A DNA stretch of 64,000 nucleotides from Demequina litoralis. GTDB taxonomy: Bacteria > Actinomycetota > Actinomycetes > Actinomycetales > Demequinaceae. Made by a program: the position numbers and the translations under genes. The DNA is taken from contig NZ_JAUHPW010000001.1 of assembly GCF_030418455.1 (NCBI RefSeq), positions 186,001 to 250,000 on the forward strand, given 5' to 3'. Of the stretch, positions 6,322 through 50,749 are shown piece after piece. The notes under the pieces are model-generated. The model had not been told where the DNA came from. It ran no database searches and saw nothing but the letters and a program-made list of their open reading frames with translations. Position 1 is the stretch's first letter; each line of letters begins with the position of its first letter.

Positions 6322-7589
6322 CACACCGCCTCCAGGATCGCGACGACGCCCTGGCCGCCGGCGGCGCAGACCGAGATGAGGCCGCGCGTGCCCGGGCCGC
6401 GCTCGTGCAGGAGCTTCGCGAGCGTGGGTACGATGCGGGCGCCGGTGGCGGCGAACGGGTGGCCCGCCGCAAGCGACGAGCCGGCGATGTTGAGGCGGTC
6501 GCGGTCGATCGCGCCGATGGGCCCGTCGAGCCCGAGCGACCGGCAGTAGTCCTCGTCCTGCCACGCCTTGAGCGTCGCCAGCACGGTCGACGCGAAGGCC
6601 TCGTGGATCTCGAAGAGGTCGATGTCGTCCACGGTGAGGCCCTGGCGGGCGAGCAGCCGCCCGGTGGCGCCGACGGGCGCGAGCAGCAGGTCGGCTCCGC
6701 CCGGGTGGTCGACGGCGGCGACCTCGGCATCGACGATGCGCGCCCACGGTGTGAGATGGTGCGCGACGGCCCACTCCTCGGTCGCCAGCAGCACCGCGGC
6801 GGCGCCGTCCGACAGCGGCGTCGAGTTGCCGGCCGTCATCGTGCCGTCGGGTCCGCCGAACGCGGGCCTGAGCGTGCCGAGCCGCTCGACGCTGGTGTCG
6901 GGGCGCAGCACCGCGTCACGGGTGACGCCCTGGTACGGCGTGACGAGGTCGTCGAAGAAGCCGCGCTCCCAGGCCTCCGCGAGGCGGTGGTGGCTGGCAG
7001 CGGCGAGCTCGTCCTGCGCCTGGCGATCGATCTCCCAGCGGATGGTCGTGACGGCCTGGTGCTCGCCCATCGACAGCCCGGTCCGCGGTTCCGCGACGCG
7101 GGGGGCGGCGGGGGCGAGGTGGCCGGGGCGCACCTTGGCGAAGGCGGCGAGGCGCTCCTTCGCGGAGCGGGCGCGGGAGGCCTGGAGCAGGATGCGTCGC
7201 AGCGGGTCGCTCACGCTGATCGGCGCGTCCGAGGCGGAGTCGACGCCCGCGGCGATGCCGTGGGTGAGCTGGCCGAGGGCGATCTTGTTCGCGATGTACA
7301 TCGTGGTCTCGAGGCCCGTGGCGCAGGCCTGCTGGAGGTCGCATGCCGGCGTCTCGGGCGCGAGCGCCGAGCTCAGCACGGCCTCGCGCGTGAGGTTGAA
7401 GTCGTTCGGGTGCTTGAGGACCGCACCTCCCGCGACCTCCCCGATGCGCTCGCCCGCGAGGCCGGTCCGGGCCACGAGCCCGTCCAGCGCCGCCGTGAGC
7501 ATGTCATGGTTGGACGCCCGCGCGTACGGGCCTCCCGCCTTCGCGAACGGGATCCTGTTCCCACCGACGACCACGACCTTGTGGTGCAT
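6321..7589 (-). CDS. Acetyl-CoA acyltransferase (thiolase), FadA2/FadI-like
   Basis: A 422-residue thiolase that cleaves 3-oxoacyl-CoA with CoA. Catalytic features are Cys89 in QQACATG, His in the FEIHEAFA motif, GHPFAATGA and the C-terminal CAAGGQG. The ATG at 7589 has a strong GGAGGA upstream. It is the first gene of a tightly coupled operon (thiolase, FabG4-like, MaoC, then FadD) divergent from a TetR regulator. The order FadA2/FabG4/HtdX is conserved in mycobacteria, supporting a role in long-chain or unusual fatty-acid degradation. Confidence 0.93.
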   Translation of the reverse strand: MHHKVVVVGGNRIPFAKAGGPYARASNHDMLTAALDGLVARTGLAGERIGEVAGGAVLKHPNDFNLTREAVLSSALAPETPACDLQQACATGLETTMYIANKIALGQLTHGIAAGVDSASDAPISVSDPLRRILLQASRARSAKERLAAFAKVRPGHLAPAAPRVAEPRTGLSMGEHQAVTTIRWEIDRQAQDELAAASHHRLAEAWERGFFDDLVTPYQGVTRDAVLRPDTSVERLGTLRPAFGGPDGTMTAGNSTPLSDGAAAVLLATEEWAVAHHLTPWARIVDAEVAAVDHPGGADLLLAPVGATGRLLARQGLTVDDIDLFEIHEAFASTVLATLKAWQDEDYCRSLGLDGPIGAIDRDRLNIAGSSLAAGHPFAATGARIVPTLAKLLHERGPGTRGLISVCAAGGQGVVAILEAV

Positions 7590-7621
7590 AGCTCCTCCGA
7601 TGCCTCTCGGTGACTAACCGA

Positions 7622-7632
7622 TACCGACGGTA
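7622..7632. promoter_or_regulatory. Short palindrome in divergent thiolase/TetR promoter
   Basis: TACCG-A-CGGTA, a perfect 11-bp palindrome in the 76-bp gap between the thiolase start (7589) and the TetR start (7666). Flanking TAACC (7615-7619) and GGTTA (7651-7655) form a wider inverted pair. Position suggests an operator of the adjacent TetR; binding is inferred. Confidence 0.45.
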
Positions 7633-7665
7633 GCAGATACCGCGAGTACTGGTTATGGTGGGGTC

Positions 7666-8289
7666 ATGGCCACCGATGGCAGGGACACCCGCTGGGAGCA
7701 GCATCGCGTCGACAGGCGCCGCGAGCTGGTCTCCCACGCCCTGCGCGCCATCCGCGTGCACGGCCCCGGCGTCGCGATGGAGGACATCGCCGCGCGGGCC
7801 GGGACGTCGAAGACCGTGATCTACCGGCACTTCGGCGACCGCGCGGGCCTCTACGCGGCGATCGTGGAGGCGGTGCACGACTACATCCACTCGGGCCTCA
7901 TGGCGGCGCTCGAGGTGACCGATGCGGCCGACCTCGGCCGGATGGCCGGCGACCTCGCGGACGCGTACCTGGGCCTCGTCGAGCACGACCCCCACATCTA
8001 CCGCTTCGTGCTCGCAGCCCCCGCCGCACAAGGCTCGCCGGACTCGGATCCCGCCGGTGCGCTGCCGGACATCATGGGCCGGCATGTCTCGGCCGCGATC
8101 GCCGAGCGTCTGGTGCTGTCGGGGCTCGACGCCTCGTCCGCCCCGATCTGGGGCCACGGCCTGGTGGGCTTCATCCGTGCCGCCGCCGACCAGTGGATGC
8201 TCACCGAGCCGCGGCCGCCGCGCGCCGAGGTCGTCACGCACATCACCGCAGTCTTCACGCCCGGATTCAAGGGCGCGATCGCCACCTGA
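7666..8289 (+). CDS. TetR-family regulator of the fatty-acid genes
   Basis: A 207-residue TetR protein with HTH segment VAMEDIAARAGTSKTVIYRHFGDRAGLYAAI at about residues 37-67 and a helical effector domain containing a WGHGLVGFIRAAADQW stretch typical of actinobacterial TetR proteins found with acyl-CoA genes. The ATG at 7666 follows a GGTGGGG Shine-Dalgarno. It is divergent from the thiolase operon and 26 bp upstream of the acyl-CoA oxidase, so it likely represses both, with acyl-CoA or a fatty acid as a plausible inducer (inference). Confidence 0.88.
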   Translation: MATDGRDTRWEQHRVDRRRELVSHALRAIRVHGPGVAMEDIAARAGTSKTVIYRHFGDRAGLYAAIVEAVHDYIHSGLMAALEVTDAADLGRMAGDLADAYLGLVEHDPHIYRFVLAAPAAQGSPDSDPAGALPDIMGRHVSAAIAERLVLSGLDASSAPIWGHGLVGFIRAAADQWMLTEPRPPRAEVVTHITAVFTPGFKGAIAT

Positions 8290-8315
8290 CCCACCCCGAC
8301 CCGTAAGGAGCAACA

Positions 8316-10265
8316 ATGACGTTGACCGACGAGACCCCGGCCCCGCTCGCGCACGAGCGCCTCACGACGCTGGGCGCCGCGCTGCGCACCGCGCTCGACG
8401 GGCCCTACGCCGCCGAGCGCGCGGTCAACCGCGCGACGTACCCGGCGGAGGGGTCGCTGCGGCCCGTCGGGCTGGGAGTCGAGGAGTCCCGGGACTGGAC
8501 GCTCGCGCGGCTGCGGGCGCTGGACGAGGCGGGCTTCGGCTCGGCCGGGGTCCCGGAGCGCGCGGGCGGGCACGCCGACCCGCTCGAGGCCGTGCTCACG
8601 TTCGAGACCCTCGCGAAGACGGACCTGTCGGTCACCATCAAGTCGGGCGTGCAGTTCGGCCTCTTCGGGGGCGCGATCGCGAACCTCGGCACCGCGTGGC
8701 ACCACGACACGTTCCTGCCCGGCGTCACGTCGATGGAGCTGCTGGGGTGCTTCGCCATGACCGAGCTGGGCCACGGCTCGGACGTCGCGAGCCTCGAGAC
8801 GACCCTGACGTACGTACCGGCGACGGACGAGCTCGAGGTGCACTCTCCCACGGCCGCATCGACGAAGGCCTACATCGGCAACGCCGCCCGCGACGGGCGC
8901 ATGGCGGCGGTCTTCGGCCAGCTCGTCGTGGCGGGGGAGAGTCACGGCGTCCACACCGTCCTCGTGCCGATCCGCGACGAGGCCGGGCGCGTGCTGCCGG
9001 GGGTCACCGTGGGCGACCACGGGCACAAGGGCGGCCTGCTCGGCATCGACAACGGCACGCTGCGCTTCGACCGCGTGCGCGTGCCGCGGCGCATGCTGCT
9101 CGACCGCTACGGCGGCGTGGGCGAGGACGGGGCGTACCGCTCCGCGATCGCGGACCCCAACCGGCGCTTCTTCACGATGCTCGGCACGCTGGTGCGGGGC
9201 CGGGTGTGCGTCGGCGGGGGCGGCTCCATGGCCGCACGACGCGCCCTGTCCATCGCGACCCGGCACGCGCTGCGCCGCCGGCAGTTCCCCGCGCCCGGCC
9301 GCCCCGACGGCGTGCTGCTGCTCGACTACGTGGTGCATCAGCGGCGCCTGCTGCCGCTGGTCGCCCGCGCGTACGCCTTCGGCGCCGCGCAGAACGAGCT
9401 CATCGGCGCGCTCGTGCACGTCCAGGGCGAGGACGAGAGCACCGAGCGCGACCAGCGCGAGCTCGAGACCTTCGCCGCCGGCATGAAGGCCATGCAGACG
9501 TGGTTCGCCAACCGCGCGGTGCAGGAGGCGCGCGAGGCGTGCGGCGGCGCCGGCTACCTCAGCGAGAACGAGCTCACCGCGCTGCGAGGCGACGTCGACA
9601 TCTTCGCCACGTTCGAGGGCGACAACACCGTGCTCATGCAGCTCGTCGCGAAGGCGCTGCTCACCGACTACCGGCACGCGTGGAGCGCGCTCGACCGCTC
9701 GGGCGTGGTGCAGGCCACCACGCGCGCCGTGGGGGAGATGGTGATGGAGCGCACGGCGGCGGGGCTCATGCTCGACCGTCTCGCCTCGACCGCGCGGCGC
9801 CGGCCCGAGGAGACCACCCTCGTGGACCGCGGCTGGCACGCGATGATGTTCGAGGACCGCGAGCGCCACTCGCTGGAGTCGCTCGCGCGCCGCATGCGCG
9901 CCGCCTCCAAGTCCGGCGGCGACCAGTTCGAGGCCTTCAACCGGCTCGGACCCCACGTGCAGTTCGTCGCGCGGGCGCACATGGAGCGCGTCACGCTGGC
10001 GGCGCTGGTGAAGCTGGTCGACGCGTGCGAGGACGCCGAGGCGCGCGAGGTGCTCGAGCGGGTGTGCAGCCTCTACGCGCTGTCGAGCATCGCGGGCGAC
10101 CGCGCCTGGTTCCTCGAGCACAACCGGGTCACCGCTGCCCGGTCCAAGGCGATCGGCGACCAGATCGACGCGCTGTGCCGTGAGCTGCGGCCGCACGCGC
10201 TGGCGCTGGTCGAGGGGCTCGGCATCCCGCGTGGCTGGCTGGCGGCGGCTCTCCTCGAGGACTGA
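8316..10265 (+). CDS. Acyl-CoA oxidase/dehydrogenase (ACOX-type)
   Basis: A 649-residue flavoprotein of the acyl-CoA oxidase group, introducing the 2,3 double bond into acyl-CoA. Features are FAMTELGHGSDVASLETT (FAD/substrate loop shared with ACOX) about residue 150, the EACGGAGYLSENEL segment and DIFATFEGDNTVLMQ around residue 440, where ACOX enzymes carry the catalytic Glu. Length matches ACOX (about 650), not the 380-residue ACADs. The ATG at 8316 has a good AAGGAG. It is co-transcribed with the upstream TetR and supplies the first oxidation step for the divergent operon. Confidence 0.92.
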   Translation: MTLTDETPAPLAHERLTTLGAALRTALDGPYAAERAVNRATYPAEGSLRPVGLGVEESRDWTLARLRALDEAGFGSAGVPERAGGHADPLEAVLTFETLAKTDLSVTIKSGVQFGLFGGAIANLGTAWHHDTFLPGVTSMELLGCFAMTELGHGSDVASLETTLTYVPATDELEVHSPTAASTKAYIGNAARDGRMAAVFGQLVVAGESHGVHTVLVPIRDEAGRVLPGVTVGDHGHKGGLLGIDNGTLRFDRVRVPRRMLLDRYGGVGEDGAYRSAIADPNRRFFTMLGTLVRGRVCVGGGGSMAARRALSIATRHALRRRQFPAPGRPDGVLLLDYVVHQRRLLPLVARAYAFGAAQNELIGALVHVQGEDESTERDQRELETFAAGMKAMQTWFANRAVQEAREACGGAGYLSENELTALRGDVDIFATFEGDNTVLMQLVAKALLTDYRHAWSALDRSGVVQATTRAVGEMVMERTAAGLMLDRLASTARRRPEETTLVDRGWHAMMFEDRERHSLESLARRMRAASKSGGDQFEAFNRLGPHVQFVARAHMERVTLAALVKLVDACEDAEAREVLERVCSLYALSSIAGDRAWFLEHNRVTAARSKAIGDQIDALCRELRPHALALVEGLGIPRGWLAAALLED

Positions 10266-45132: not shown

Positions 45133-47271
45133 ATGACCGTTGACGTCTCGGCGACCAGCGCGGCGCCCGACTCCACCGCCAACCGGACGACCAGGCGCGG
45201 CGGGATGCGCCCGGAGATCCAGGGACTACGCGCCCTCGCCGTGGCACTGGTGGTGCTGTACCACGTGTGGCCGGACCGCCTCACGGGCGGCTTCGTCGGT
45301 GTGGACGTCTTCTTCGTCATCTCGGGCTTCCTCATCACCGCGCACCTGGCGAAGGAGGTCGCTGCCACCGGGTCCGTGCGCATCGGGCAGTTCTGGGCGC
45401 GACGCATCCGCCGCCTGCTGCCGGCCTCGCTGCTCGTGCTCCTCGTGTCGGCGATCGCGGTGCTGACGCTCGTGTCGCAGGCGTACTGGCTGCAGTACCT
45501 GCGTGAGATCGTCGCGTCCACGCTGTACGTGCAGAACTGGGAGCTCGCGTCGAGCGCGGTCGACTACCTCGCGGCGGAGAACACCGCGTCACCTGTGCAG
45601 CACTTCTGGTCGCTGTCGACGGAGGAGCAGTTCTACCTCGTCTGGCCGGTGCTGATCGTCGGGGCGGTGTGGCTCGCGAACCGTACGGGCCGTGTGAGCG
45701 CACGCCTCGCGATGCGGGTGGTGCTCGGCGTCATCCTCGCGGCCTCCCTCGTGTGGAGCATCGCTCAGGTGGCGAGCGACCCGGCGGTGGCGTACTTCTC
45801 GACGTTCGTGCGGGCGTGGGAGTTCGCCGCGGGCGGCCTGCTCGGCCTCTTCACCGCGCCGGTCTGGCGCAGCGTCGGCTGGCAGCGGGCGGCGTCGTGG
45901 GCGGGATTCGCGATGATCCTCGTCACCGCCTTCACGTACACCTCGGCGACGCCGTTCCCGGGTGCGTCCGCAGTGCTCCCGGTCGCCGGCACCGTGCTGG
46001 TGATCGCCGCCGGACACGCCGACGGTGCGCTCGGCACCGCCCACCTGTACCGGTGGCGGCCCGTGCAGTACGTCGGCGACATCTCGTACTCGGTGTACCT
46101 GTGGCACTGGCCGCTCATCGTCCTGCTTCCCCTCGTGCTGGACCGCGAGCTGACCGGGGCCGACAAGCTCGCGCTGCTCGCGGCCACGCTCGTGCTGGCG
46201 TCGCTGACGAAGCACCTGGTGGAGGACCGCCTGCGCCTCAACAAGCTGACGAGCCGCCGCTCGGTCGCGGTGACGTTCGCCGCCACGGTGGTCGGCATGG
46301 GCGCGGTGATCGCGCCGGCGGCGTACGGGATCTCCACCATGAACTCGCAGGTCGCCGAGCTCGAGGCCGAGAGGGCCGCCGTGGAGGCATCGATCGAGGA
46401 CGCCGCGCAGACGGGTGCCGAGTCGGAGACATGCGTCGGTGCCCAGGCGCTGGACGGCGACGCGACGTGCGTCACCGATCAGCAGAGGGAGCTCATCCCT
46501 GCGCCTGCGGTGGCCAGCGAGGACATCCCAGAGCTCTACACGGACGAGTGCCGCACCGACATGCCCGAGGTCACGATCAAGCCGTGTCGGTTCGGCGACC
46601 CCGACGGCTCCGTCACGGCGGTGCTGATCGGCGACTCCCACTCCGCCTCGTGGTTCCCCGCCGTCAAACTCGTCGCAGAGAAGCGCGGCTGGGACCTGAC
46701 CGTGTACTTCAAGGCGGGCTGCGCCTGGAACGCCGCGTCGCAGGAATGGGACGAGACGGTTCAGCGCACCAGCTGTGCGCAGTGGAACGAGGACGTCACG
46801 GACCGTCTGCTCGCCGATCCGCCCCAGCTCATCGTCACGTCCGCGCTCTTCGACGATCAGTGGGGCGACGGCGCCGTGGCGGCGCAGATCGCCATCGACG
46901 GCTTCGCGACCTCGTGGAGCGCGCTCGCCGAGGCGGGCTCGACTGTGCTGCCCATCGTGGACACCCCCCAGACCTCCGTGGAGGCCCAGGAGTGCCTCCT
47001 GGCGGGCCAGCCAGGGGCGCTCGACTGCGGCACCCCGCGCGCGACCGCGCTGGACCGTCCGGACGTCATGAGCCTCGCGGCCGCAGAGGTCCCGGGGGTC
47101 GAGGCGGTCGATCTCAACGACTACTTCTGCACCGCCGACTTCTGCCCCTCCGCCATCGGATCGATCACGGTGTACCGCGATCGCGGCCATCTCACCCAGA
47201 CCTACGCGACCACTCTCGCCCCGTACCTCGACGAGCGCATCACCGACACGCTCGGCGCATCGGTGCGTTAG
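45133..47271 (+). CDS. OafA/YrhL-type acyltransferase with SGNH domain
   Basis: A 712-residue membrane O-acyltransferase. The acyltransferase-3 domain (about residues 25-370, ten or so TM helices) has the catalytic His motif RALAVALVVLYHVWP and FVGVDVFFVISGFLI, plus the Glu region QHFWSLSTEEQFYLVWP. A last TM (VAVTFAATVVGMGAVIAP) leads to an extracellular SGNH domain with Ser502 in IGDSHSASW and His686 in DRGHLT. Such proteins acetylate cell-wall or surface polysaccharides. ATG 45133 with a weak GGGGG. A truncated paralogue follows at 47372. Confidence 0.92.
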   Translation: MTVDVSATSAAPDSTANRTTRRGGMRPEIQGLRALAVALVVLYHVWPDRLTGGFVGVDVFFVISGFLITAHLAKEVAATGSVRIGQFWARRIRRLLPASLLVLLVSAIAVLTLVSQAYWLQYLREIVASTLYVQNWELASSAVDYLAAENTASPVQHFWSLSTEEQFYLVWPVLIVGAVWLANRTGRVSARLAMRVVLGVILAASLVWSIAQVASDPAVAYFSTFVRAWEFAAGGLLGLFTAPVWRSVGWQRAASWAGFAMILVTAFTYTSATPFPGASAVLPVAGTVLVIAAGHADGALGTAHLYRWRPVQYVGDISYSVYLWHWPLIVLLPLVLDRELTGADKLALLAATLVLASLTKHLVEDRLRLNKLTSRRSVAVTFAATVVGMGAVIAPAAYGISTMNSQVAELEAERAAVEASIEDAAQTGAESETCVGAQALDGDATCVTDQQRELIPAPAVASEDIPELYTDECRTDMPEVTIKPCRFGDPDGSVTAVLIGDSHSASWFPAVKLVAEKRGWDLTVYFKAGCAWNAASQEWDETVQRTSCAQWNEDVTDRLLADPPQLIVTSALFDDQWGDGAVAAQIAIDGFATSWSALAEAGSTVLPIVDTPQTSVEAQECLLAGQPGALDCGTPRATALDRPDVMSLAAAEVPGVEAVDLNDYFCTADFCPSAIGSITVYRDRGHLTQTYATTLAPYLDERITDTLGASVR

Positions 47272-47371
47272 CGGCTCGCGGCCCGAACCCCACCACCTGA
47301 CCCGATCCACCCGCCCTGCCCGACGGTGCACCCGCCCCGCCGTACCTGACCCTCACCTCACGGAGGAACGC

Positions 47372-48394
47372 TTGCGTCTCACGAAGCTCACGAGCCGGCC
47401 GTCGCTCGTCATCACGTTCGCTGCCGCGCTCGTCGGCATGACCGCGTCGCTCGCGCCGGCCTCAGGTGCGGCAGCGGGCCCAGCGGCCTCCACGACCAGC
47501 ACGGCAGCGACCGCGATCACGACCCTCGCCACCGCCACGACGGCGCGCATCTGCTTCGGTGCGAAGGCGATGGCGCACAACTCGACCTGCGTCACCGACA
47601 CGAGCAAGGCGCTCTCTCCGAGACCGTCCGTCGCCAGCGAGGACGTTCCGGAGATCTACAGCGAGGAGTGCCGCAGCTCGCCCCAGGAGCCCGAGGTCAA
47701 GCCCTGCAGCTTCGGGAAGGCGACCGGCCGGGTGAAGGTCGCGCTGATCGGCGACTCGCACGCCGCGAACTGGTTCCCTGCGGTGAAGTTCGTGGCGGAG
47801 AAGCACGGCTGGGACCTCACGGTCTACTTCAAGGCGTCGTGCCCGTGGAACGCCACCGCGCAGACGTGGGGCGATTCGACGTCGCGCGAGAGCTGCGCGC
47901 AGTGGAACACGGACGTCACGGCGACGCTGCTCGCCGCTCCGCCGGACCTCATCATCACCTCGGCGCTGTTCGGACGCCAGTGGGAGTCGGGCGACGCCGG
48001 GGTCCAGGCCGCGGTCGACGGCTACACGGCCTCGTGGCAGCAGCTGACGGACGCGGGTTCCACGGTGCTGCCCATCGTCGACACCCCGCAGATGTCGGGC
48101 AGGGCTCAGCGCTGCATCCTGAAGAGCAGTCCTCAGACCCGGAACTGTGGCACGCCGAAGACGACCGCGCTGAACGACCCGCCGGTCATCGGCCTCGCGG
48201 CAAGGCGCGTCGAGGGAGTCAGCCCCGTCAAGCTCAACCGGTTCTTCTGCACGAGCACGTTCTGCCCCTACGCGATCGGCTCGGTCACCGTGTACCGCGA
48301 CCGCGGCCATCTGACGGCGACCTACATGCGGACTGTCGGACCGTACCTCAACAAGCGCATCCCGAAGGAGTTCTACGCGCCGAGGTTCCGCTGA
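47372..48394 (+). CDS. Secreted SGNH-domain protein, partial tandem duplicate of the acyltransferase
   Basis: A 340-residue protein matching the C-terminal half of the upstream acyltransferase: RLTKLTSRPSLVITFAAAL against RLNKLTSRRSVAVTFAATV, then IGDSHAANWFPAVKFVAEK with Ser129, CAQWN, VLPIVDTPQ and VYRDRGHLT with His313. The acyltransferase-3 domain is absent. The former last TM now forms an N-terminal signal peptide or anchor. The start is TTG 47372 with GGAGGA at 47362-47367; both lie in sequence homologous to codons of the parent gene at 46221-46233. A free SGNH esterase/transferase is likely. Confidence 0.85.
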   Translation: MRLTKLTSRPSLVITFAAALVGMTASLAPASGAAAGPAASTTSTAATAITTLATATTARICFGAKAMAHNSTCVTDTSKALSPRPSVASEDVPEIYSEECRSSPQEPEVKPCSFGKATGRVKVALIGDSHAANWFPAVKFVAEKHGWDLTVYFKASCPWNATAQTWGDSTSRESCAQWNTDVTATLLAAPPDLIITSALFGRQWESGDAGVQAAVDGYTASWQQLTDAGSTVLPIVDTPQMSGRAQRCILKSSPQTRNCGTPKTTALNDPPVIGLAARRVEGVSPVKLNRFFCTSTFCPYAIGSVTVYRDRGHLTATYMRTVGPYLNKRIPKEFYAPRFR

Positions 48395-48494
48395 CACACG
48401 GGAGCCCCGGGGGAGCGGCACCGGGCATTCCCGGGGGCATGACCAGGGGAGAAGCGGTGAATCAGGGCGCCGGCTCTGGCTGGGCGCTGCAACC

Positions 48495-49763
48495 TCAGAG
48501 GCTCATGCTGCTCTCCACGAAGAGTGCCAGGTCCTCCACCAGCGTCCAGTCCGACTCGGAGGCGGCCTCGGGGGAGATGCCGTCACGCCGCACGTCGATC
48601 ACCCATGCGTCGCCACCTCCCGATGTCACCACCGTCACCACGCCGAACCCGTCCGCGCCCTCCGCGCTGTACCGTGACAGGGCCAGCGTGAGGTAGCGCG
48701 TCGCGCCCACCACGGGCGACCCTTCGCTCGGGTCATCGAGCAACGTGAAGGCCGGATCCGCTCCCCACACCGCGGTCACGGCGTCGTCGAAGGCGAGGTG
48801 GGCGGCCCACGCCGCGTCCTCGAGGCCGATCCCGTAGAGCGCGACGCTCAGATCATCGAAGTGCGACGACGCCGCGATCGCATAGGTGGCGCCGTCGTCG
48901 CGCAGCCCGTGCTCGTCCACCTCCAGGGTGGGCGGGAGCACGACGTCGTAGGTGCCGAGGTCGACGGTGACGGGGGGTTGTTCCGCCGCTGCGTAGGCGT
49001 CGCAGAGGTCCTCGTTCTCGGAGAGGAGGCCGGCGGACCAGGCGGCCGCCCGCTGCCTGGCGCTGCCGCGCGCGGCAGCATCGAACCAGGCGGAGTCTCC
49101 CACCGTCTCGTCGTTGATCACGTACATCATCTTCGCGCCCAACCAGCCGTCGGTGGCGGGATCGAGCTTGACCGGATACTCCTCCGAGGCGAGCGCGGAG
49201 AAGAACATCCCGGTGCGGCAGTCCGCCTGCAGCGAGGCGCCCAGCTCGGTTACGGCCTCCGTGCCCCGCACCGCGGCGACGTGCCGCGCATACTCGTGCG
49301 CGACCACCCAGGCGACCGCCTCATCGCCGCCGAGCGTGGTCGGATCGATGACGGGCTCCGTGCTCGTGGGGACCTCCTCCTCGTACCCCGCGTCGCGCAC
49401 GAGGAACAGCCACCGCAAGTTCAGCAGCACCTGCGCGTCCGCGGCGCAGTAGAAGGACGTGTCGAAGTAGTCCTCGGCGGACTCGGCGCACGACGAGCCA
49501 GGGAGTTCGTCGTCGTCCTCGTCGTAGACCTGGACGCCGGGGGAGGAGAACCCCGGGATGCGCTCCGCCCAGTACTGATCGAGCGACCTCACCGTCCGAT
49601 CGACGAGCTCGGCAGGCCCGATCTCCTCGGTGACTCCGGGCTGGACGCTCGCGAACGCGTTCGGGACCGACGGCAGGCTCGTGGGACCGGCGTCGGACCC
49701 TCCCGAACAGCCGGCTGCTGCTAGTGCGCCCGCGGCCAGCGCCGCCCAGAGCCCCCTGCGCAT
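48495..49763 (-). CDS. Lipoprotein with degenerate neutral zinc metallopeptidase domain
   Basis: A 422-residue lipoprotein (lipobox LAAAGC, Cys19). Residues about 50-250 resemble the YpfJ/neutral zinc metallopeptidase family, but the zinc site HExxH is altered to HEYARH (156-161: the second His is shifted by one and replaced by Arg160), and the downstream ELQADC is SLQADC (177-182), losing the glutamate ligand. It is therefore probably non-catalytic. The C-terminal 170 residues are of unknown fold. Convergent with the SGNH duplicate. ATG at 49763. Confidence 0.78.
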   Translation of the reverse strand: MRRGLWAALAAGALAAAGCSGGSDAGPTSLPSVPNAFASVQPGVTEEIGPAELVDRTVRSLDQYWAERIPGFSSPGVQVYDEDDDELPGSSCAESAEDYFDTSFYCAADAQVLLNLRWLFLVRDAGYEEEVPTSTEPVIDPTTLGGDEAVAWVVAHEYARHVAAVRGTEAVTELGASLQADCRTGMFFSALASEEYPVKLDPATDGWLGAKMMYVINDETVGDSAWFDAAARGSARQRAAAWSAGLLSENEDLCDAYAAAEQPPVTVDLGTYDVVLPPTLEVDEHGLRDDGATYAIAASSHFDDLSVALYGIGLEDAAWAAHLAFDDAVTAVWGADPAFTLLDDPSEGSPVVGATRYLTLALSRYSAEGADGFGVVTVVTSGGGDAWVIDVRRDGISPEAASESDWTLVEDLALFVESSMSL

Positions 49764-49928: not shown

Positions 49929-50351
49929 TCAGCGCGCGGCCCACGGGTTCAACAGGTCCACGCCCAACTCCTCGAAGTCGGCGATGTTGCGTGTCACCAG
50001 CGTCAGCCCATGCGTCGCGGCCGTCGCCGCGATGAGCGTGTCGACGTATGGCCTCGGATTGGGCACGTGAAGTCTCGCCGCGTACGTGGCGACCTCGTCG
50101 GACACCGCAAGGATCCGGCCGGCGAACGCCGTACGCACACGCGTGTCGAGCCACGCGCGCAGCACGGCCCCTTGGCGCGGGTCCTTCCTTTCGCGCTGCA
50201 GCACGCCGCGTTCGAGCTCGAAGAGGCACATCGCGGACGTGTGCAAGAGTTCGAGCGCTACAGAGTCCGCCCACGCGAACACACGTGCATCCACCGCATC
50301 GTGCTTCTTGCGCAACTCGGAGATGACGTTGGTGTCGACCAGGTACGTCAC
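49929..50351 (-). CDS. PIN-domain toxin (VapC/FitB-like)
   Basis: A 140-residue PIN RNase. Acidic active-site residues appear in VDTNVISELR (Asp6), the middle CLFELERG (Glu), PYVDTLIAATA (Asp) and VTRNIADFEELG (Asp). The GTG at 50351 overlaps the antitoxin stop (GTGA), the usual toxin-antitoxin coupling. FitB/VapC toxins cleave tRNA or rRNA. Third-position bias is somewhat weaker than in neighbours, consistent with acquisition by transfer. Confidence 0.9.
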   Translation of the reverse strand: MTYLVDTNVISELRKKHDAVDARVFAWADSVALELLHTSAMCLFELERGVLQRERKDPRQGAVLRAWLDTRVRTAFAGRILAVSDEVATYAARLHVPNPRPYVDTLIAATAATHGLTLVTRNIADFEELGVDLLNPWAAR

Positions 50352-50581
50352 AGCTCGACCTCGCGCTCCACGGGCGCGGTCCGTTCGGGTGCGAAGTCGA
50401 TGTCGTCGTCCGCGGCCAGCTGGCGCGCCAACGAGCGGCCATGCACGGCGAAGGACTCGTATGGGACCAGCACGTACGCGGCGCGGCCTCGATGGGTGAT
50501 GACCACGGGTCCGTCCGTGTCGGCGGCGCGCATCGCCGCCGAGGGATTCTGATTGAACTCGCGTGCGCTGATGGCAGTCAC
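50348..50581 (-). CDS. Phd/YefM-type antitoxin
   Basis: A 77-residue antitoxin. The N-terminal Phd/YefM DNA-binding fold is seen as TAISAREFNQNPSAAMRAAD, PVVITHRGRAAYVLVPYESF; the C-terminal acidic tail (DDDIDFAPERTAPVEREVEL) would wrap the toxin. Start GTG 50581. It neutralises the PIN toxin and, with it, represses the operon via the palindrome just upstream. Confidence 0.88.
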   Translation of the reverse strand: MTAISAREFNQNPSAAMRAADTDGPVVITHRGRAAYVLVPYESFAVHGRSLARQLAADDDIDFAPERTAPVEREVEL

Positions 50582-50598
50582 GGCGTCCTCCCACGAAA

Positions 50599-50616
50599 TG
50601 TAGTGACCTCACTACA
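50599..50616. promoter_or_regulatory. Antitoxin operator palindrome
   Basis: TGTAGTGA-CC-TCACTACA, a perfect palindrome 18 bp upstream of the antitoxin start, in a locally AT-rich promoter. Typical for autoregulated Phd/YefM modules, which use TGTA-type half sites. Confidence 0.7.
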
Positions 50617-50749
50617 ATAACGCGGCGACGCCCGTTGCACATCCCATCCCCAACGGTGCTTCCATGGAAAGGCGCGTTTCGACCTGGAGACCACCGCGAC
50701 ACCCGCGCAGGCGCTCAGAGCGCCCTCACGGACTTAACCGTCCACGACG

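Follow-up and report, generated by a model that had tools for sequence, protein, structure and literature searches.

Probable origin of a stand-alone SGNH gene in Demequina by partial tandem duplication of an acyltransferase gene

Where does a gene for a free SGNH domain come from, and where does it obtain its start signals, when it lies directly behind a gene for a membrane acyltransferase that ends in the same kind of domain? The question is raised by two neighbouring genes in a 64,000-nt stretch of the Demequina litoralis genome (positions 186001-250000 of contig C1 in G000, a genome of 3.02 Mb), which we call the window and whose coordinates are used unless another locus is named. The first gene, P (45133-47271, forward strand), encodes an AT3-SGNH acyltransferase of 712 aa from an ATG at 45133, and the second, S (47372-48394, forward strand), encodes a stand-alone SGNH protein of 340 aa with a TTG start. 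An earlier note, made from the sequence alone, had described S as a new gene born by partial tandem duplication of P, with a start codon and Shine-Dalgarno (SD) sequence taken from parental coding sequence. We consider it probable that S is indeed a retained partial tandem duplicate of P whose start signals came from the coding sequence of the parent.

The proposed mechanism has four parts. The copied segment would have run from the codons of the hydrophobic segment before the eleventh transmembrane helix (TM11) through the SGNH domain, and the parental Val-Glu-Asp-Arg-Leu codons would have supplied GGAGG at the right spacing for a translation start. TM11, which carries the SGNH domain to the outside in AT3-SGNH proteins, would have turned into an export helix at the N-terminus. 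Codons lying ahead of the new start, being untranslated, would have decayed into a leader.

The two genes and the start region of the short one

The domain content of the two proteins, as assigned from Pfam and the translations, differs in one respect. Residues 28-339 of P match Acyl_transf_3 (PF01757, E 9.9e-28) and residues 473-699 match the SGNH family PF19040 (E 3.9e-29); P is a large membrane enzyme that probably decorates surface sugars. S matches PF19040 over residues 100-326 (E 7.4e-27, 95.1 bits against a gathering cut-off of 27) and has no PF01757 match at E 0.1. Since S lacks the AT3 domain, it is a derivative of the AT3-SGNH acyltransferases rather than a member, in keeping with the earlier idea of a stand-alone SGNH domain released from a multi-domain membrane enzyme. 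The proteins are 55% identical over 337 aa, with the match beginning at S residue 1, and the tandem homology at the nucleotide level consists of blocks of 107, 124 and 153 nt at 70-76%, with offsets of 1141, 1120 and 1120. The two genes, their tandem homology and the two 13-mers compared in the earlier note are thus all as it described them. Its partial tandem duplication stands as well, while its placement of the parent's start at 46201 does not, as this position is internal to P, which starts at 45133.

The sole related locus that the named genome collection yielded is that of D. phytophila NBRC 109391 (contig NZ_BBLW01000007; our genome G018 is taken as D. phytophila), which carries P and an orthologue of S, here S1. 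A second short SGNH gene, S2, lies behind S1 in that species (L032, 7204-8160). Another short gene, G023_S, is found in the genome G023, and S1, S2 and G023_S likewise pass the PF19040 gathering score. The nearest full-length relatives in the genus search are two AT3-SGNH genes in direct tandem in G042 (L034, 4957-7077 and about 7193-9304).

The start signals of S can be followed in both species. The parental Glu-Asp-Arg-Leu context reads GGAGGACCGCCTG (46221-46233, forward strand), and this is the single occurrence in the whole P gene of GGAGG followed after 4-8 nt by CTG, in frame. The start region of S is spanned by GGAGGAACGCTTG (47362-47374), in which GGAGG (47362-47366, forward strand) precedes the TTG by 5 nt. 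S1 of D. phytophila also has a TTG start and GGAGG at the identical 5-nt spacing, which agrees with the earlier assignment of this motif as a ribosome-binding site (RBS) at the parental spacing; the D. phytophila parent reads GTCGAGGATCGCCTC at the aligned site. Over the 18 nt before the start, S matches the parental codons at 14/18 positions in the window and 15/18 in D. phytophila, and S and S1 are identical at 15/18. The parental 18-mer is matched equally well at 9 of the 63982 positions on the forward strand of the window, the 18-mer itself and the copy included. These comparisons support the view that the SD and the start codon of S would lie within sequence inherited from parental codons.

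The origin of the start codon itself is less certain. The aligned parental codon is CTG in P of the window, CTC in P of D. phytophila, TTC in both G042 genes and CTG in another full-length relative (G005, row L007), and the short genes have TTG (S in both species), ATG (S2, again with GGAGG) or GTG (G023_S). Since the parental codon varies among relatives, the ancestral one need not have been CTG, and a CTG-to-TTG step is unprovable. A C-to-T change at the start codon is possible, and the single-step account given earlier is at most weakly supported.

The open frame of S runs 100 codons upstream of the TTG (a frame of 440 aa) and contains no ATG, GTG or TTG before 47372; this TTG is the first such codon after the upstream in-frame stop, and we infer that translation initiates there. 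It is very improbable that S is translated instead from the ATG at 47438 as a cytoplasmic protein. As a start codon ATG generally outperforms TTG, but D. phytophila has a Thr codon in place of this ATG, while the TTG, the SD and the spacing are kept. In addition, a protein starting at 47438 would be without the hydrophobic export segment, its best 14-mer having a mean hydropathy of 1.11 against 2.19 for S.

A leader apparently derived mostly from coding sequence

Between P and S lies a leader of 100 nt (47272-47371, forward strand), which is homologous to that of D. phytophila (alignment score 60, reached by 0/500 shuffles); their alignment opens a 1-nt gap at -19 in the window copy. Register comparison relates the parental codons at 46174-46230 (forward strand), which encode the hydrophobic segment before TM11 and then H-L-V-E-D-R, to the leader stretch at 47316-47371 (forward strand), which is 1 nt shorter than the parent and has decayed beyond -18. 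The hydrophobic segment is TM10 by the family numbering, the helices here giving no reliable count. A change-point fit pooled over both species places the break at 18 nt, and the fit for D. phytophila alone places it at 57, marginally ahead of 19.

The decayed part of the leader still retains a parental signal. With the 1-nt gap allowed, the homologous register of -19 to -93, a length fixed by where P stops in D. phytophila, ranks 1/2001 against both parents (z 3.5), and 7 and 4 of 2001 by single species. For -19 to -57 the rank is 1/2001 with z 4.1 (sum 88 against a mean of 48.6, sd 9.7 and a next best of 80; the four summed comparisons are not independent, since the two leaders are mutually homologous). 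Its value is reached by 9/20000 Markov shuffles in D. phytophila and 39/20000 in the window. Shorter pieces are weaker, with rank 11 for -19 to -48 and rank 19 of 2001 for -19 to -39, and there is no parental signal in -58 to -93 (rank 601/2001). From these registers we conclude that the copied segment would have begun roughly 57-63 nt before the present TTG, and that the leader is apparently mostly former coding sequence, of which the untranslated part decayed and the SD-bearing 18 nt stayed. The gap between the leaders of the two species breaks the former reading frame. The former coding character of most of the leader strengthens the case for a partial tandem duplicate. It also corrects the earlier statement that S begins exactly where the homology begins: strong homology starts 18 nt upstream and continues in decayed form to about -57, so that the alignment to the parent puts the breakpoint there and not at the start codon.

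The same leader bears on a different order of events, in which the whole gene was duplicated in tandem and the AT3 part of the second copy was then deleted, the start and SD still being parental and the junction a deletion scar. The tandem pair in G042 implies that whole-gene tandem copies occur in the family, and a deletion that extended into the 5' flank would look similar after decay. On the other hand, the part of the leader upstream of -18 (82 nt in the window and 75 nt in D. phytophila) shows no significant similarity to the 250 nt preceding P (141/500 and 301/500 shuffles as good). A gapped search of the leader against the P coding sequence upstream of the breakpoint was likewise matched by 53, 406, 555 and 292 of 1000 Markov shuffles, the exception being the in-register stretch to -57. 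We regard a whole-gene duplication with later deletion as quite unlikely.

Two further observations concern the same region. A 29-nt repeat relates the leader to parental positions 46018-46051, with a gapped match that 2/500 simple shuffles reached; this extra homology was rejected, as 53/1000 Markov shuffles did as well and the match is unseen in D. phytophila. A consensus scan of 46900-48600 found 0 promoters and terminators; since only 0.1 and 0.2 were expected, the scan is uninformative on co-transcription of P and S.

Age, distribution and number of births

The P-S1 arrangement is collinear between the window and D. phytophila, with 80.7% nucleotide identity over 3358 nt, and neighbouring blocks longer than 500 nt have 79-89%. 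The pN/pS values against D. phytophila are 0.297 for S and 0.319 for P. Nonsynonymous divergence (dN) is 0.136 between S and S1, 0.131 between the two P genes, and 0.39 between S and P of the window. A value of 0.39, compared with about 0.13 between orthologues, places the duplication clearly before the D. phytophila split. S therefore appears to be retained under purifying selection and, as judged from these sequence divergences, to be clearly older than that split, so that it is not "new" as the earlier note had it. Recent gene conversion between P and S was considered and rejected, as it has left no gene-level trace: the P orthologues and the S1 orthologues each group at bootstrap 100.

The gene pair is distributed sparsely. 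In an rpoB tree of 22 genomes, the window genome groups with G019 and D. phytophila groups with G023, each at 100/100. Short-frame matches occur in 3/44 genomes of the genus, namely the window genome, D. phytophila (two) and G023. A flanking gene is present in 10/11 genomes searched. In all five relatives whose syntenic site was fetched (G019, G023, G024, G042 and G008; 5 of the 8 genomes with the flanking gene besides the window genome and D. phytophila), the flanks are present and the site is empty, blastn matching neither P nor S between them. This patchy occurrence together with the empty sites implies repeated loss or interspecies exchange of an old gene pair, rather than a recent birth.

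The SGNH domain was placed in five trees (51 rows, 18 rows and three of 8 rows). Their order has the full-length pair of G042 outermost, followed in turn by G023_S, S2 and the pairs formed by S1 and by P, and the nearest outgroups, the G042 pair and G005, are all of the full-length AT3-SGNH type. A topology that unites P with G042 and leaves the short genes apart is rejected (AU p 0.009); one that places all four short genes in a single clade is not (AU p 0.213 with 18 rows; 0.079, 0.133 and 0.202 with 8 rows). G023_S lies at a different locus, overlapping with its GTG the TGA that ends a 159-codon open frame; the remaining matches in the G023 genome have 30 and 37% identity.

Several results weigh against a partial duplicate of P with inherited start signals. 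In the leader, -19 to -30 alone is indistinct (rank 94/2001), and the window leader without the 1-nt gap ranks 1959/2001 over -19 to -93. Moreover, the limit of -57 was read off the D. phytophila profile first, so that the tests of -19 to -57 were chosen post hoc; the test was for this reason repeated on the fixed length of -19 to -93 and on the other lengths given above. No duplicated 3' flank of P is detectable behind S (345/500 and 351/500 shuffles as good). The first 24 codons of S carry no purifying signal (pN/pS 1.28, from few sites and with uncertain gap placement), and the AlphaFold model of S is poor outside the core (mean pLDDT 58.5, with residues 1-91 under 50). The 18 nt before the start of G023_S match the parental codons at only 7/18 positions. 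In four of the five trees G023_S falls outside P+S1+S2 (94/89, 84/92, 89/94 and 90/95), while the 8-row protein tree does not resolve this node; the placement could reflect two births or a different history of P. Neither S1+S2 (p 0.126) nor S1+P (p 0.386) is rejected and S2+P has support of 62/49, so that more than one branching order of P, S1 and S2 is compatible with the trees.

The position of G023_S is also what an older, separate stand-alone lineage would produce, with the common ancestor of P and S further back, or an exchange of the SGNH part of P with a short copy. Stand-alone PF19040 proteins present in other families of the order would fit such a history. Its difficulty is that the closest outgroups are full-length and that the leader of S agrees in register with parental codons, an agreement that requires descent from a longer gene. 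The earlier note had named an older short family as the finding that would speak against it, and this was found in part: G023_S lies outside in four of the five trees, while the tests do not reject a clade of the four short genes. We judge an older lineage or an exchange to be unlikely. Within the preferred reading, descent of S from P by partial duplication, one birth is favoured by the shared start position, even though the 18 nt of G023_S are unlike the parental codons.

Short SGNH genes were also sought in a wider sample of 396 genomes drawn from the larger group, the order, of which 179 had a match at E 1e-20; several short-frame SGNH matches are among the matches listed. In family f13, two genomes (G273 and G209; L045 and L046) carry a short TM11-SGNH gene beside full-length relatives on the same strand, and the five short and full-length genes form one clade (100/99). 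As this clade lies apart from that of Demequina, it implies an independent origin of short SGNH genes. On the 51-row tree, switches between short and full-length number at least 6 (11 short of 50 rows, row L052 being excluded as cut by a contig end). Because the rows were selected for resemblance to S, and the short ones deliberately fetched, this count should not be read as a rate. Among the 11 short genes, five (in G107, G146, G172, G302 and G366) carry a cysteine behind a hydrophobic start, as in a lipobox, and look like lipoproteins. In the lipoprotein-like stand-alone SGNH proteins of L049, L050 and L051 (G107, G146 and G172; PF19040 shown for L049), GDSK replaces GDSH.

A further reading, which we offer tentatively and hold to be doubtful, is that AT3-SGNH genes are predisposed to release a free SGNH domain. 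The Glu-Asp codons GAG GAC/GAT would form a latent RBS ahead of an export-competent TM11, and Demequina would have captured this latent signal. If so, a break upstream of the Glu-Asp site would give a ready-made secreted gene, and some intact AT3-SGNH genes may already use the site as an internal start. GAGGA is found at this site in 11/38 full-length genes, and 4/38 also have an in-frame ATG or GTG no more than six codons further on, both being counts without a chance expectation. Four full-length AT3-SGNH genes (L014, L017, L023 and L025) have GAGGA at Glu-Asp or Glu-Glu codons and, after it, a GTG or ATG in frame; these are possible internal starts.

Probable function and comparison with known systems

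The presumed export helix of S (47372-47476, forward strand) aligns to the parental TM11 and consists of an R/K-rich start, a 14-residue hydrophobic core and then small residues, with a net charge of +3 before the hydrophobic stretch and a mean hydropathy of 2.19 over the 14 residues. In P, residues 376-401 are the last hydrophobic stretch, in the segment after E364-D365. The alignment agrees with the earlier proposal that the parent's last membrane helix was reused for export, and export of S via the former TM11 is plausible. The linker GISTMN..VAELEAERA is alike in both parents, and the short genes carry Ala/Thr/Ser-rich or shorter stretches there.

The residues expected of an SGNH protein are present: G127-D128-S129-H130 and D310-R-G-H313 are invariant across 5 aligned proteins. 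We presume, by analogy with the SGNH family, that Ser129 in GDSH (47756-47758, forward strand) is the nucleophile and that Asp310 and His313 in DRGH (48299-48310, forward strand) are the other catalytic residues. The best Protein Data Bank (PDB) match of the S model is the periplasmic SGNH domain of OafB (6SE1, E 1.1e-6), and matches at E <=0.001 are three: 6SE1, a putative hydrolase (4H08) and PatB (7TLV). TM-scores of the S model against its best PDB matches, SGNH enzymes among them, are 0.33-0.37 by query, at a model pLDDT of 58.5. A phmmer search of PDB sequences gave no match at E 1 or better. Taken together, S is probably an exported SGNH acyl-ester enzyme with apparently intact catalytic residues. 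By analogy with its family, from which alone the substrate is taken, it would most likely act on acyl esters of the surface glycan that P also acts on. It is about equally likely to be a transferase, receiving an acyl group from an AT3 domain, or an esterase that removes acyl groups.

Two genes follow S on the reverse strand. That at 48495-49763 encodes a 422-aa protein without a Pfam match at E 0.01, which has one distant match (36%, in G009) among 10 other Demequina genomes searched. That at 49929-50702 encodes a protein with a PIN domain (PF01850, E 2e-13), which may be a VapC-type toxin belonging to a toxin-antitoxin pair.

Domain release by partial duplication is a known route to new genes, and we found no report of this case in open-access searches on partial duplication, gene fission, internal translation initiation and stand-alone SGNH proteins. 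What is unusual here is that the start signals are traceable to parental coding sequence in two species, and that the upstream sequence is caught decaying into a leader. A parallel is given by the short genes in family f13, which also encode a TM11-like helix and an SGNH domain beside same-strand full-length relatives, their closest in the tree; they differ in that their first in-frame start is an ATG and that a longer stretch precedes the helix. SucT, an AT3-SGNH acyltransferase (NCBIfam NF058601), is the best NCBIfam match of both P (344.3 bits) and S (116.6 bits), but these scores are far under the curated cut-off of 1275 bits and the SucT function is therefore not transferred.

The comparison with PatA and PatB concerns the division of labour. 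In Gram-negative bacteria the roles of the two OatA domains are split between PatA and PatB, according to passages of PMC9487903. S, whose export is presumed, would resemble the exported SGNH protein that works apart from a membrane acyl donor in this system, as passages of PMC9487903 and PMC6174289 describe it. The differences are that PatA is an MBOAT and not an AT3 protein, that S matches PF19040, and that Demequina keeps the fused parent too.

A further comparison is with the AT3-SGNH proteins themselves (OatA and OafA/OafB; PF01757 plus PF19040). Passages of PMC9833829 state that the 11th helix of OafA/OafB places the SGNH domain outside, and that for OatA an 11th helix was predicted earlier, 9 helices with a re-entrant loop also having been proposed. 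The AT3 domain of OatA acetylates its SGNH domain, according to passages of PMC9487903. P has both domains of these proteins, and S has the SGNH domain with the parental TM11 segment but no AT3 domain, so that it must act apart, or with P or another AT3 protein as partner. The fused and the free SGNH domain, being of common origin, form a natural pair for asking whether a free SGNH domain accepts acyl groups from an AT3 domain.

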